From positions 1 through 37,103 of the forward strand of contig JAUVVY010000040.1 in assembly GCA_030604405.1 (NCBI GenBank): a DNA stretch of 37,103 nucleotides, in the 5' to 3' direction. Position numbers and translations under genes: made by a program. Below, one piece after another: positions 1,019-22,751 of this stretch; within the stretch, counting starts at the first letter, position 1; every line of letters starts with the position of its first letter. The notes beneath the pieces are model-generated. The model saw only the letters and a program-made list of their open reading frames with translations, did not search any database and had not been told where the DNA came from. This DNA comes from a bacterium. GTDB lineage: Bacteria; Armatimonadota; Zipacnadia; Zipacnadales; UBA11051.

Positions 1019-3361
1019 TCAAGCCCGCCAATCTGGGTCTTTGCTTCTATCTACGTCTTCCAGGCCCTTACCTTCGAGTATGGTGCCTGTGAGGTTGGCT
1101 TTGTAGAAGTTGGCAGTTTCGATTTCACACGCGCCTTCTAACGATGCATCTGTCAAATCAGCTTCGGCAAAGTCTGCGTAATGGATCTTGGTTCCACGTA
1201 GGTTGGCTGCGCGCAGGTCGGCTCCGGTCAGGTCGGCTCGGTTCAGGTCGGCATCGCTCAGGTCGGCTCCGCTCAGGTTGGCTGCCGTCAGGTTGGCTCC
1301 AGGCGCCTCAGCTCCGCTCAGGTCGGCTTCGCTCAGGTCGGCTTCGCGCAGGACGATTCCCGGCAGGTGACCTCGCCTCAGGACAGCTTTGCCCAGGTCG
1401 GCTTCACTCAGGTTGGCTCCCCAGAGGCGGGCTCTGGTCAGGTTGGCTCCGCGCAGGACGGCTCGGCGCAGGTCGGCATCGTCCAAGTCGGCTCCGTGGA
1501 GGTCGGCTCGGCTCAGGTCGGCTCCGGTCACAACGGCTTGGCGCAGGTTGGCTCCGGTCAGGTCGGCGTCGCGCAGATCGGCCCCCATGAGGTTTGCTTG
1601 CGATAGATTTGCGGCGACGAGCACAACTTTGCGCAGATCGACCGAGAGCAGTCCTCCATCTCCACCAAAGGTGGCGGCGTTAAAGGCCACCTGTCCGAAC
1701 CCGCCCAAGTGTAAGTGTTGGGTCAAGTTGAGCTGGTGCAGGTCCACACCGGAAAGATCCAATAGCTGGTAGTCCGTCTCTGCACGTCGCCGGTTGAAAT
1801 ACATGATGTTGCTAGCGCGGAGAAGCTTCAGAGCTTCCTCTCGCGTCAGCGGGCCGTCTCCAGGTTCCTCAGTTTCTGGTGTCACCGTGACGGTCGTCGC
1901 GCGGGCATGCGCCTGTATCTGTTCCGGTGGGAACTCCAAGAGTTGTGTGTGCAGCAGGAGCTGGGCGACCTTTCTACGGGTTTCATCGTCACGCGCGCCA
2001 CTGGCAATGCGACCTGGCTGAGGTGGTGTCGGCTCCGGGGTATTGTCCTCAGTACCGGCGTCTTCTGCGTTTGCGCCGATGTCCACGTTCAGTTCGCGGC
2101 ATGCTTGCCGGTAGAGCAGATCTCGGTACTGGTCTGTGGAGTCAGCGACAAGACGGTTGTAAGTATCTTCGTCAAGAAAACGCAACACAAGCAAGGATAC
2201 CGTTATGAGGGGATTGAAGGGGGTTCCTGGTGTGTCTTTCAATTCTGCGCGCGTCATGTCCGAGCTTACGATGTAGGCATTGAGCAGGCGCTTCATCTCG
2301 CGCGGCTTTTGCTGCAAGTAAATGGTAGCGATGTCACACACTTTTTCTAGGCCCGGGAGTTCGAGTTTCTTGGGCTGCTGGTCGAACTTGAGATATTCCT
2401 CTGGGTCATGCGGTAGCAAATCTGCGATGGGCCGGCGTAGTTCATTAGGAAGGTTTTCTTCAGAGATCAGGCCCTGGACGAGGCCGTCCATTTCCCGTTG
2501 CGTTCCGGGGGGTATGGCGAACGGGACCTGAACGATTTTCTTTATGTACTCGTCACCCAGATCGGGACCGTAGGGATGCTCTTCAAGCTTCTCACCCCTG
2601 TGGCAATACTTTATCTCCACGCATCTTTGGATAATGGCACGGTTGAGACCAAGGACATAGACCATGCCGGGGAAACCGAGGAATACCTTGACGGCTTCTA
2701 ACACCGCCAGTGCCGGCTTGGGGAGACACCTGTCGAGATCGTCTATGAAAACCACAAATTTGTTCTGATACTCGTGCCCCGTTGGCTTAGCGAACTTACC
2801 GATCTCCTCCCTTAGCCTCTGATAAGCCTTTTCATATTCGGATGAGCCGGGCATTGTCTTACGTAGCTTCTCCCAGTACACGAAGGTCTTCTCTGGATCA
2901 TACTCGACGCTTGCCGATACTCCGGGCGTCTTGATCTCGGCACCAAAGGTGAAACCTCGCAGGACAGACAACAACCCACGACCGAGCGTACGGAGTGCAG
3001 CTTTCACCTTGTTGCCCAAGCCCCTGTCATGCCGCTTCACAGCCTCCGCTATCGTGTTTAGAAGGGGCAATATGAGTTCACTTTCGCGTTCGTAGCGCCA
3101 GGCTTCGAACCATACCGGGATAACCTTAGGTGACCTGGCAGTTTTGATGTGCTCTTCGAGCTTGCCCTCCACCATCTTCATCAGCGTGGTCTTGCCGGTG
3201 CCCCAGTCCCCGAAGATGCCGATGGTGAAGGGAGTGTCGCCGCCCAGGATGATGTTGGTGAGCACATCGGCATAGACTTCGAAACCGAGCTTGCCCTCCT
3301 TAACCGGCTCGTCGAGGAGTATCTTGACGAAGTCATCTTGGTTGGTCTCGTTATCCGCCAT
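1019..3361 (-). CDS. KAP family P-loop NTPase with C-terminal pentapeptide repeats
   Basis: A 780-residue protein starting at 3361 behind GGAGTG. The Walker A motif GDWGTGKTT is at residues 51-59, the KAP-typical WFEAWRYE at 84-91, and Walker B FVVFIDDLDRC at 202-212. Together these identify the KAP group of STAND-like ATPases. An acidic, Pro-rich linker (about 430-500) leads to some 190 residues (about 575-765) of A(D/N)LxxA pentapeptide repeats, which fold as a right-handed square beta-helix. No obvious pair of transmembrane helices interrupts the NTPase, unlike many KAP proteins, so it may be cytoplasmic. By eye the first two thirds are more AT-rich than the neighbours, and the gene stands alone between unrelated metabolic genes, which fits acquisition. 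Some KAP proteins act in phage exclusion; a defence role here is only an inference. Confidence 0.92.
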   Translation of the reverse strand: MADNETNQDDFVKILLDEPVKEGKLGFEVYADVLTNIILGGDTPFTIGIFGDWGTGKTTLMKMVEGKLEEHIKTARSPKVIPVWFEAWRYERESELILPLLNTIAEAVKRHDRGLGNKVKAALRTLGRGLLSVLRGFTFGAEIKTPGVSASVEYDPEKTFVYWEKLRKTMPGSSEYEKAYQRLREEIGKFAKPTGHEYQNKFVVFIDDLDRCLPKPALAVLEAVKVFLGFPGMVYVLGLNRAIIQRCVEIKYCHRGEKLEEHPYGPDLGDEYIKKIVQVPFAIPPGTQREMDGLVQGLISEENLPNELRRPIADLLPHDPEEYLKFDQQPKKLELPGLEKVCDIATIYLQQKPREMKRLLNAYIVSSDMTRAELKDTPGTPFNPLITVSLLVLRFLDEDTYNRLVADSTDQYRDLLYRQACRELNVDIGANAEDAGTEDNTPEPTPPQPGRIASGARDDETRRKVAQLLLHTQLLEFPPEQIQAHARATTVTVTPETEEPGDGPLTREEALKLLRASNIMYFNRRRAETDYQLLDLSGVDLHQLNLTQHLHLGGFGQVAFNAATFGGDGGLLSVDLRKVVLVAANLSQANLMGADLRDADLTGANLRQAVVTGADLSRADLHGADLDDADLRRAVLRGANLTRARLWGANLSEADLGKAVLRRGHLPGIVLREADLSEADLSGAEAPGANLTAANLSGADLSDADLNRADLTGADLRAANLRGTKIHYADFAEADLTDASLEGACEIETANFYKANLTGTILEGKGLEDVDRSKDPDWRA

Positions 3362-20329: not shown

Positions 20330-20395
20330 GTAGGGGCGCAATTGATTGCACCCACTCAGCAGCCGCGTGGAGGGCGTGATAAATCACGCCCCTAC
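20330..20395. repeat. double-hairpin repeat element with GTAGGGGCG ends
   Basis: Outer arms GTAGGGGCG (20330-20338) and CGCCCCTAC (20387-20395) are perfect inverted repeats. Inside are two smaller hairpins, GGGCGCAAT/ATTGCACCC (20334-20342, 20345-20353, one mismatch) and GGGCGTGAT/ATCACGCCC (20372-20380, 20383-20391, perfect). It looks like a small non-coding palindromic element. The rest of 20244-20554 shows no gene. Confidence 0.7.
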
Positions 20396-20554
20396 GGACA
20401 GGCCGAGCCCAACCACGCCCGCAAGGCCGCCTGTGCAAGGGGCAGCTCATTCGCGCAGCCGCATCGGGGCCATACCGGCGGCGTATGTCGTAGGACTCCG
20501 CACCTCCAGGCAGGACTCTGTGCCCTCAAGCGTGAAAGAGAGCTTGCGATAATC

Positions 20555-21706
20555 ATGGTAACAAGGATCACTTTTCACACCAAACCAGCCAAACCCAAAC
20601 GTAAGCGGAGACGGCAAGTAGTCGGTTTCGTCAAAAGGCACCTGGAAACCTTCGGCTGGCTGTGGTGGATAGATGTTGACACAGGCTGGCTGACCAGACA
20701 TGCTGTAATATCCCAGGTGCATCGCCTCCGCAGCAAAGGCTGGCAAATTGAAACCGTTCCTCGAAAAGGCTACAAGCTCATCGCACGGCCCGAAATGCAA
20801 CACTCCACCGATGCGCCGGCTCCCCGGCAGCCAAAGCAGAACCGCCCCAGCCACCCACAGTTCGTCAGAAGGCTGCTGCTGGAGCACGGCCACCTGTGGC
20901 TCGACGAAGTGGCCGCCGAGAGTATTGCCCCAGAGCAGCTTCGCCAACAGGTCTATTGGCTGCGGCAAAAGGGATGGGAGATTGAGACGACACCACGCGG
21001 TTACCTGCTGCACAGCCGGCCGCCAGACGATTCCCCAGCTCCCGCGCGCCACGGCTTTGTAAAAAACCACCTACGGCGCTACGGCAGGCTCAAGTGGGCG
21101 GACGCCACTTTGGCCCGCCTTAGCAGGCGCGTCGTGTACGGTCAGGTCCAACGCCTGCGCACAAAAGGCTGGCAAATTGAAAACCTTCCCGGAGAAGGAT
21201 ACAAGCTTATCGCAACTCCCCAAAGCCAGCTCTACGACGATACCCCGACTCAACCAGCATCAAAGTCGGGGGGCCGCTGGTGTTTCGTGAAAAGGCATCT
21301 ACTGCAGCACGGCCACCTGTGGCCGGAGGAAGTGGCCGGCGAGAGCATCAGCCGAAAGCAGCTTCGCGGACAGGTCTATTGGCTCCGCAAAAAGGGATGG
21401 GAGATTGAGACGACGGCGCGGGGCTGGGTGCTGCACAGCCGGACGGCGGACAAGCCGCGAGCCAGCGCTCGACCCGGCTTTGTAGAGAAGCACTTGCAGC
21501 GGCGCGGCTCCTTGTCGTGGACGGAGGCCACCCGCGCCGGCGTTAGCAGGCACGTCGTGCACGCTCAGGTGCGACGGCTGCGCAGAAAAGGCTGGCGAAT
21601 TGAAAACACACCCCGAGGAGTCCGCCTGCAGAGCATTCCCAGGCCAGCGCCTCGCGGAACCCCGAAGTCGCTTACTCGCCTATCGGACGTGAAGCGTCGG
21701 GGCTGA
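20555..21706 (+). CDS. protein of five tandem winged-helix-like repeats (unrecognised architecture)
   Basis: From the ATG at 20555 (MVTRITFHTK) it is 383 residues. A basic tail (PKRKRRR, 14-20) precedes five repeats of about 56 residues at 23-79, 102-156, 166-222, 242-297 and 307-362, joined by Pro-rich linkers. Each has a helix (FVKRHL..HG.LW), a helix-turn-helix-like segment (SR..V..QV..LR.KGW.IE) and a beta-wing (TPRGYKL). This resembles the BirA/HTH_11 winged helix, in which a recognition helix is followed by EGYEIE-type and GRGYRL-type strands. Repeats 1, 3 and 5 are one type (QVxRLRxKGWxIEN/T), 2 and 4 another (QVYWLRxKGWEIETT). There is no other domain. A multivalent nucleic-acid-binding role is inferred. 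The ribosome binding site is weak. Confidence 0.8.
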   Translation: MVTRITFHTKPAKPKRKRRRQVVGFVKRHLETFGWLWWIDVDTGWLTRHAVISQVHRLRSKGWQIETVPRKGYKLIARPEMQHSTDAPAPRQPKQNRPSHPQFVRRLLLEHGHLWLDEVAAESIAPEQLRQQVYWLRQKGWEIETTPRGYLLHSRPPDDSPAPARHGFVKNHLRRYGRLKWADATLARLSRRVVYGQVQRLRTKGWQIENLPGEGYKLIATPQSQLYDDTPTQPASKSGGRWCFVKRHLLQHGHLWPEEVAGESISRKQLRGQVYWLRKKGWEIETTARGWVLHSRTADKPRASARPGFVEKHLQRRGSLSWTEATRAGVSRHVVHAQVRRLRRKGWRIENTPRGVRLQSIPRPAPRGTPKSLTRLSDVKRRG

Positions 21707-21713
21707 CAAAGCA

Positions 21714-21803
21714 GGGAAATTGGGGACAGTCACCCATTTCTTGCCGCTGCGATCATAATGTCGTCCAAGATCGGTGGAAATGGGTGACTGTCCCCAATTT
21801 CCC
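21714..21803. repeat. REPIN-like paired inverted repeat, perfect 27 bp arms
   Basis: Arms at 21714-21740 and 21777-21803 are perfect reverse complements (27 bp) and contain the core GGGGACAGTCACCCATTTC. The spacer is 36 nt. The right arm ends directly at the stop codon of the CBM9-like gene, and the element lies only 7 nt after the stop of the winged-helix repeat gene. It is the best copy of the family also seen at 9800-9887. Confidence 0.9.
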
Positions 21804-22490
21804 TTACAGAGCCGCCAGCCGGACTTGGCCCCAGGTGCTGGGGTCGTAAGTGTACGGAAATCTGTCGCTGATTGCGTATGTCTGTCGCCCGCGGACCAGG
21901 TCGGTAATCAGGTAGGTGAACCCCATCGTCTGCCCCGGCTCCGGCTCGAAGCCCTGCAAGATCTCCGCCGGCAACAGCACCTCGAGGCTGTAAGATGTTT
22001 CGTCCTGGCGGGCGGCGATGACAATGTCTTCAGGCGCGGCCATGGCGGACTGATCGTGAGCGCGGCGGATAGGGGTCTGCCAGCCGAGTGGCTCCTGGCG
22101 ACCCGGGCCACCGCCCTTGGGCAGGATGACGAAATGGTGGCAGAAGCGGGTCGCACGATGGCCGCTGAGGCCGCCGCGGGTGTCCAGCCATACCTGGAAG
22201 CTGTCGGCGCTGTGGGGGCGCTGGCGGCTGATGGCGACGGGTTCCTCGCGCTCGGCGAAAGTAGCCAGATAGACGCCGCGCTCGTTGTAGGCGATCTTTA
22301 CCTCGGCAAACGGCTCGCCGCCATCGAGCTGAACCAGCGGCGGCAGGGCGGGTATGGCCTGCCAGTCGGACAGGTCGCCGTCAATGGTGATGTCGCCGGC
22401 ACGGGGGCACTCGACCACCGGCCTGAAGAGCAATCGCGACGGGAAATCCACAGTTAGTTTTCCCCTCTCTTGGTCCATCTCGCGTGCCAC
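21804..22490 (-). CDS. CBM9/DOMON-like carbohydrate-binding domain protein
   Basis: The start suggested is the GTG at 22490 with AGGGGAA 6 nt upstream, giving 228 residues; the ATG at 22478 (MDQERGKLTVDFPSR) is the alternative. The motif ITIDGDLSDWQAIPAL followed by VKIAYNERGVYLATFAERE, then DSFQVWLDTRG and a C-terminal GFTYLITD is the pattern of family 9-like carbohydrate-binding modules in glycan-related proteins. There is no signal peptide and no enzyme domain, so it may be intracellular or have lost an N-terminal part: the sequence just upstream is a repeat element (22503-22610). Binding partner unknown. Confidence 0.75.
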   Translation of the reverse strand: MAREMDQERGKLTVDFPSRLLFRPVVECPRAGDITIDGDLSDWQAIPALPPLVQLDGGEPFAEVKIAYNERGVYLATFAEREEPVAISRQRPHSADSFQVWLDTRGGLSGHRATRFCHHFVILPKGGGPGRQEPLGWQTPIRRAHDQSAMAAPEDIVIAARQDETSYSLEVLLPAEILQGFEPEPGQTMGFTYLITDLVRGRQTYAISDRFPYTYDPSTWGQVRLAAL

Positions 22491-22502
22491 AAGCTTTCCC
22501 CT

Positions 22503-22610
22503 TCGACGTTGCTCAGGGCGGTGAGCCTGTCGAACCGCAGCCTGTGGTCGTTGCCGTTGCCTTCCGGAGGGGCCTGCCTGCCCTGAGCCTGTCGAAGGGC
22601 CGAAGGCCTG
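22503..22610. repeat. dispersed repeat with CTCAGGGCGGTGAGCCTGTCG core
   Basis: Blocks such as GCTCAGGGCGGTGAGCCTG and CCCTGAGCCTGTCGAAGGG form partial inverted repeats. The same blocks recur at 36826-36896. The type is common between genes in bacterial metagenome assemblies. It lies directly upstream of the CBM9-like gene start. The remaining spacer up to 22724 shows no gene. Confidence 0.65.
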
Positions 22611-22716
22611 TTCGGCGGGCCGAACATGCCTGAGACTGGCCCGCGCCCTTCTCATCGCTCTGTGGGCCGAATGGGGGATGTTTGGGGCCCCATCCGGCCC
22701 AGGCGTTGCCGCCACC

Positions 22717-22751
22717 AACAAAACGAGCCACCCATCTCGGTGGCTCTTTTT
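22717..22751. terminator. bidirectional intrinsic terminator
   Basis: GAGCCACC (22725-22732) pairs with GGTGGCTC (22739-22746) over 6 nt. On the plus side five T follow; on the minus side GTTTTGTT follows. Its position 27 nt after the minus-strand zinc-ribbon gene suggests it mainly ends that gene. Confidence 0.72.

Follow-up and report, generated by a model that had tools for sequence, protein, structure and literature searches.

Bacteria seldom have arrays of same-fold DNA readers such as zinc fingers, TALEs and Myb repeats, and their winged helices normally occur one or two per chain together with a sensing or catalytic partner. BirA, the biotin protein ligase, carries one N-terminal winged helix (TIGR00122; HTH_11, PF08279) joined to a biotin ligase/repressor part, and NiaR (TM1602) combines a single HTH_11 winged helix with a ligand-binding, sensing domain. 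A longer row is found in domain IV of SelB, which places four winged helices one after another in one bacterial protein (PMC8124441); SelB also carries an EF-Tu-like GTPase and binds RNA. Tandem winged helices are likewise recovered by Foldseek in an RNA polymerase III subunit, TFIIIC, UFL1, ESCRT-II and the prokaryotic ScpB and MukE, which are mostly subunits of large complexes, have no alternating two-type array and show no sequence relationship to the protein described here. Phage winged-helix proteins of the HTH_39 (PF14090) and PHROG 4973 families have detectable similarity to it in the helix-3/wing region, although these profiles (70 and 149 positions, respectively) match over one domain-sized stretch and no five-repeat phage relative was found.

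In the DNA analysed here (a stretch of 37,103 nucleotides, termed the window), a forward-strand open frame from ATG 20555 to TGA 21706 encodes a 383-residue protein of pI 11.55 (77 K/R versus 30 D/E) composed of five winged-helix repeats in tandem. Each repeat is predicted to have the fold of the BirA domain, its best structural and NCBIfam match, and shares with it the signature SR..V...V..LR..G..IE..P..GY.L. However, the protein has neither the ligase nor any C-terminal domain of BirA, and it lacks both the sensing domain of NiaR and the GTPase of SelB, to which it has no significant sequence match. The biotin ligase of the host genome itself has no HTH domain. What is new is the architecture, the domain being already known and ordinary. 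A literature search for bacterial proteins with five winged helices found none, in agreement with the first-pass annotation of this DNA, which knew of no described family with such a build.

Repeat architecture and predicted fold

The repeats are 58-59 residues long, begin at residues 22, 100, 165, 241 and 306 and follow the order A-B-A-B-A. Repeat 1 (A type, residues 22-80, 20618-20794), repeat 2 (B type, residues 100-157, 20852-21025), repeat 3 (A type, residues 165-223, 21047-21223), repeat 4 (B type, residues 241-298, 21275-21448) and repeat 5 (A type, residues 306-363, 21470-21643), all on the forward strand, each match the repeat profile. Mutual identity is 43-55% among the A-type repeats and 67% between the two B-type repeats, against 33-41% between the types. 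All ten repeat pairs give Smith-Waterman scores (75-215) higher than anything obtained from 500 shuffles per pair (at most 55), and 14 columns are invariant across the ten repeats of the protein and its paralogue (F4, V5, L9, G13, Q33, L37, R38, K40, G41, W42, I44, E45, G51 and L54). Repeat spacing alternates between 78, 65, 76 and 65 residues, to within one residue also in the paralogue, with long linkers from A to B (17-19 residues) and short ones from B to A (7 residues). The repetition extends to the DNA, where a 300-nt pair (20861-21160 and 21284-21583) and a 109-nt pair (20714-20822 and 21143-21251) each show 76% identity and a 51-nt repeat occurs five times. The first-pass annotation had described five repeats of about 56 residues in this same alternating order, repeated at the DNA level, and both descriptions agree with the identities, the shuffle scores and the DNA repeats.

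The same annotation held that nothing else was attached to the array. This stands as regards domains, since the 383 residues revealed no domain of effector, catalytic or membrane type, but not for the chain as a whole, which begins and ends in basic tails, each with 90% identity across the two copies of the gene in the genome. The N-terminal tail (residues 1-21, 20555-20617, forward strand) contains KPKRKRRR and is predicted to be disordered (pLDDT <50 for residues 1-14), with a dN/dS between copies of 0.10; the C-terminal tail (residues 364-383, 21644-21703, forward strand) has a dN/dS of 0.15.

AlphaFold2 predicts repeat 1, from a 10-row alignment, to be a winged helix with a pLDDT of 92.3 and the element order H-E-H-H-E-E (helix 4-12, strand 14-16, helix 17-22, helix 27-39, strands 43-47 and 51-56). 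A full-length model of low confidence (two-row alignment, pLDDT 65) contains five winged-helix units, including repeats 2 to 5, and no other domain, and its linkers (residues 81-101, 156-164, 224-242 and 297-305) fall below a pLDDT of 50. The winged-helix fold anticipated for the repeats is therefore borne out in the predicted structures, at high confidence for one repeat and at lower confidence for all five. In Foldseek searches with a single repeat the best matches are the HTH domains of BirA/biotin protein ligases (query TM-score up to 0.77), though with a query of 59 residues the E-values are no better than 0.03, and a profile of the repeats compared with the PDB gives NiaR/TM1602 as the best match (E 1.5e-5, over helix 3 and the wing) and BirA weakly. 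These nearest solved relatives support the assignment of the repeats to the BirA type. At the whole-protein level, Pfam returns HTH_11 (E 3e-11, 43.4 bits, cut-off 25) and HTH_39 (E 2e-10), both above curated cut-offs, although most single repeats match HTH_11 weakly. TIGR00122, the BirA regulatory region, reaches 76.4 bits against a cut-off of 70, but this score adds up five partial stretches, the best single one spanning only positions 25-59 of 69, and full-length BirA models score at most 23 bits against cut-offs of 353-489. As judged from these models, the repeats belong to HTH_11 and the winged-helix superfamily at the level of the domain.

Paralogue, selection and history of the gene

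The genome carries a paralogue of the same five-repeat build on a different contig (C16, L006:6310-7455), with 74% protein and 83% DNA identity. Homology between the copies spans 20505-21714 and stops there; the flanking genes differ and no neighbouring genes are common to the two loci. An assembly duplicate was rejected because 17% of sites differ between the copies and the flanks are different. Upstream of the paralogue are two overlapping genes (L006:3789-4547 and L006:4525-4890) for 252 and 121 residues, which resemble a toxin-antitoxin pair by eye and have no Pfam or PADLOC match. In the window, the reverse-strand gene at 1022-3361 encodes a P-loop NTPase of the KAP family joined to a long region of pentapeptide repeats (Pfam KAP_NTPase and Pentapeptide) and contains a DNA array of 15-nt period at 1193-1582. 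Downstream of the five-repeat gene, short repeats common to many contigs of the host genome and of its congener G001 cover the 5' end of the open reading frame at 21804-22721 (22493-22720 in the window), so that the start of this CBM9-like gene is probably further downstream.

Comparison of the two copies gives a dN of 0.153, a dS of 0.358 and a dN/dS of 0.43, with no stops and no frameshifts. Neutral evolution simulated 300 times with these base changes never gave a dN/dS below 0.55, and stops were present in every run (mean 5.1, observed 0). The gene pair is under purifying selection, though moderate only, which together with the intact frames indicates that the gene is real. Constraint is strongest in repeats 1, 2 and 4 (dN/dS 0.26-0.35) and in the two basic tails, and the linkers diverge freely yet keep their length (dN/dS 2.0 in linker 4). 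Within the domain, divergence between paralogues is lowest at the end of the recognition helix (1.0 differing pairs of 5) and in the wing (0.89), compared with 1.4-1.6 in helices 1 and 2. The exposed recognition-helix positions 28, 32 and 35 are poorly conserved, differing in 3-4 of the 5 paralogous pairs, and the helix-1 positions 7, 11 and 12 vary to the same extent.

The homologous block begins with a conserved 50-nt leader (20505-20554, forward strand), which is identical to that of the paralogue at 47 of 50 positions and is also recognisable in the remnant of the gene in G001. Its 94% identity is higher than that of the whole unit (83%; P = 0.02 relative to this value and 7.6e-5 relative to the expectation from synonymous sites), and this higher conservation suggests a functional promoter, untranslated region or operator. 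The leader is likely to be a promoter, a 5' UTR or an autoregulatory site. Tried as a genus-wide promoter, the leader motif GCAGGANTNNG...CGAA gave 6 matches versus 2 for the reversed control.

The first-pass annotation had further proposed that the array arose by duplication of a two-domain unit, which is supported by the DNA repeat period of 423-429 nt and by the dS between repeats: about 0.43-0.46 for repeats 2 and 4 and for repeats 3 and 5, compared with 1.16 for repeats 1 and 3 and 0.36 for the paralogues. The simplest order of events would start from an older A-B-A core, in which two domains, about 141 codons together, were duplicated in tandem, with gene duplication to the second locus following, although the patchy identities do not pin down the register in which the unit was copied. 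In the C16 copy, repeats 4 and 2 are separated by a dS of 0.175, less than the distance from this repeat 4 to its counterpart in the window, which points to gene conversion that would have partially overwritten repeat 4 of C16. A recent origin from the birA of the host is disfavoured, as that gene starts at the ligase domain with no HTH in frame.

In G001, the locus syntenic with that on C16 (flank 91% identical) retains only residues 1 to 38 and, twice over, the last 27-45 residues. These pieces are in different frames, with some 1.7 kb of unrelated sequence lying in between; judged by its sequence, this remnant is a pseudogene. The 1.7-kb segment, which lies between the C-terminal remnants (L007, contig C25) and holds an open reading frame resembling a GNAT acetyltransferase by eye, suggests an insertion with local duplication. 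The G001 assembly does not span the window locus. In the congener G004, hypA adjoins the CBM9 gene directly, leaving an empty site, and besides the decayed copy in G001 the gene is absent from three other congeners, from which it follows that it is dispensable. The first-pass annotation had paired absence from close relatives with a lack of purifying selection as grounds for doubting the gene; the former was found, as absence or decay, while the latter was not, selection being present.

Across 291 genomes of the phylum, a census with the repeat profile found ten repeats in the host genome, the remnant in G001 and two single weak matches, of which one (G041) is an ordinary BirA and the other (G227) is short; the array was not otherwise found. 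Pattern scans and tblastn over 84,980 bacterial and archaeal genomes yielded no confirmed relative, the scans starting from short exact peptide patterns by which distant arrays can be missed. The tblastn search of phages and plasmids found no relative of the five-repeat gene, and pattern and tblastn scans of viral contigs found neither a relative nor a five-repeat protein, so that a phage or plasmid origin was rejected. PADLOC gave no match and no link to defence.

Candidate functions

The reading we favour, to which we give about an even chance, is that of an accessory protein specific to this lineage, which would hold DNA by several individually weak winged helices and act by occupancy, as a repressor or architectural protein. 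The protein would be organised as beads on a string, with five BirA/HTH_11-type winged helices, disordered linkers and basic tails, and would insert several recognition helices and wings at once, probably into double-stranded DNA, so that weak contacts sum to tight multivalent binding. The absence of a sensor and of an enzyme, the pI of about 11.5 and the flexible linkers argue for such avidity. The A repeats have a net charge of +3 to +12 and the B repeats, which have conserved aromatics in helix 3, one of 0 to +6, a difference suggesting separate tasks: repeats 1, 3 and 5 (A type, basic) are probably the main DNA contact, and the near-neutral B repeats (2 and 4) may be spacers or protein-contact units. 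Without a ligand-binding or catalytic domain, action would be by occupancy, as a repressor or a local architectural protein, with the gene's own 50-nt leader as a possible site of control. The low divergence at the recognition-helix end and in the wing is expected if these surfaces touch nucleic acid, and DNA is favoured since the nearest relatives are DNA-binding repressors. Counted against this reading are the poor conservation of positions 28, 32 and 35, the moderate selection, the decay or absence of the gene in congeners, the lack of shared partner genes and the low confidence of the full-length model, built from two sequences. A more specific form of the same reading, a minimal modular DNA reader in which the two repeat types correspond to two half-sites and repeat number and order set a composite target, is considered improbable. 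In this form, tandem duplication and gene conversion would reshuffle the repeats, and the paralogues would be tuned to different targets. TALE logic pairs hypervariable base-reading positions, in a repeat that is uniform elsewhere, with matching arrays of sites; no such array was identified here.

The five-repeat gene may instead be an accessory of a mobile or selfish unit: the block of leader and gene would move, with the encoded winged helices attaching to the block ends or to the repeats of a helper transposon. The two copies lie at unrelated loci with homology ending at 20505 and 21714, the site between hypA and the CBM9 gene is empty in G004, the distribution is narrow, REP elements lie at the block edges and there is weak similarity to an excisionase family in PHROGs. 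However, neither terminal inverted repeats nor a recombinase is seen at the block, the REP elements are widespread in this genome and also in others without the gene, and the presence of only two copies, diverged to 83% nucleotide identity, gives no sign of recent movement. This explanation is considered unlikely.

An RNA-binding array comparable to SelB domain IV, acting on its own mRNA leader or on transcribed REP hairpins, is thought to be still less probable. SelB, whose four winged helices bind SECIS RNA, is the known bacterial precedent for such a row (PMC8124441) and keeps RNA among the possible ligands; the high basicity of the protein is compatible with it, and the Foldseek matches of the full model include SelB winged-helix fragments with SECIS RNA (2ply and 2uwm). 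However, these matches are of the generic tandem winged-helix kind (query TM-score 0.14-0.16, E about 0.02-0.04), the relatives of single repeats are DNA-binding repressors, the GTPase part is missing and no Rfam element occurs in the window at gathering thresholds. The full model also matches, again with low TM-scores, UFL1-DDRGK1, an RNA polymerase III subunit and ESCRT-II. Several of its best matches (UFL1-DDRGK1, ESCRT-II and ScpB) are protein-binding tandem winged helices, and the B repeats are near-neutral and aromatic, as might be expected of a protein-interaction scaffold whose winged helices have turned to binding proteins, as in ESCRT-II, UFL1 and condensin-type proteins. These likenesses reflect generic topology (query TM-score at most 0.22), while the A repeats, like both tails, are strongly basic and the recognition-helix end and wing are the best-kept surfaces; a scaffold is distinctly improbable. 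Decay in G001, absence from three other congeners, a dN/dS of 0.43 that is not low and the free evolution of the linkers would suit an orphan gene that has no function or is drifting towards loss. This is very unlikely, however, given two copies that are still full-length and free of stops with 17% of their nucleotides changed, a dN/dS below all 300 neutral simulations and the conserved tails and leader.

The palindromes on either side of the gene, which the first-pass annotation had proposed as the target of the protein, are both present where it had placed them. On the 5' side is a pair of palindromic repeats tagged with GTAG (20330-20395), built of 24-nt GTAGGGGCG...CGCCC arms in inverted pairs. 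GTAG-tagged REPs are high-copy short palindromes with a GTAG end that often form inverted pairs, a widespread described class with its own proposed transposases (PMC3733652), and the 5' palindrome fits this type in its sequence pattern. It has 64 sites in the host genome (control pattern 0) and 85 in G001, is absent from G002-G004, and recurs in many genomes that lack the gene, among them G036 (78) and G006 (64), as well as two genomes of the phylum where its copy number is very high (694 in G009 and 298 in G055). Of these six carriers only the host genome has an intact gene and G001 a remnant. On the 3' side, at the edge of the paralogue homology, a second interspersed element containing a 28-nt perfect inverted repeat (21713-21804) has GGGAAATTGGGGACAGTC arms, which frequently form inverted pairs with a spacing of about 70 nt, and 71 half-sites in the host genome. 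Palindromes lie near both gene copies, yet at no conserved place relative to them. Both are background interspersed repeats that form no part of the system, with no evidence that they are its target. A dedicated binder that reads the two palindrome types with its two repeat types is accordingly hard to credit, for although palindromes lie close to both copies and the GTAG element is abundant in the two genomes with gene or remnant and absent from G002-G004, this co-occurrence is expected from the close kinship of the two genomes, and the element is also numerous in four genomes without the gene and belongs to a class with transposases of its own.

The weight of the finding is limited by the dispensability of the gene in sister species, and if the favoured multivalent DNA binder bound DNA only non-specifically, it would be a local curiosity. 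The five-repeat gene nevertheless shows the birth, conversion and loss of such an array within one genus, and, seen soon after internal and gene duplication, the array is a test case for the chaining of winged helices into additive sequence recognition.
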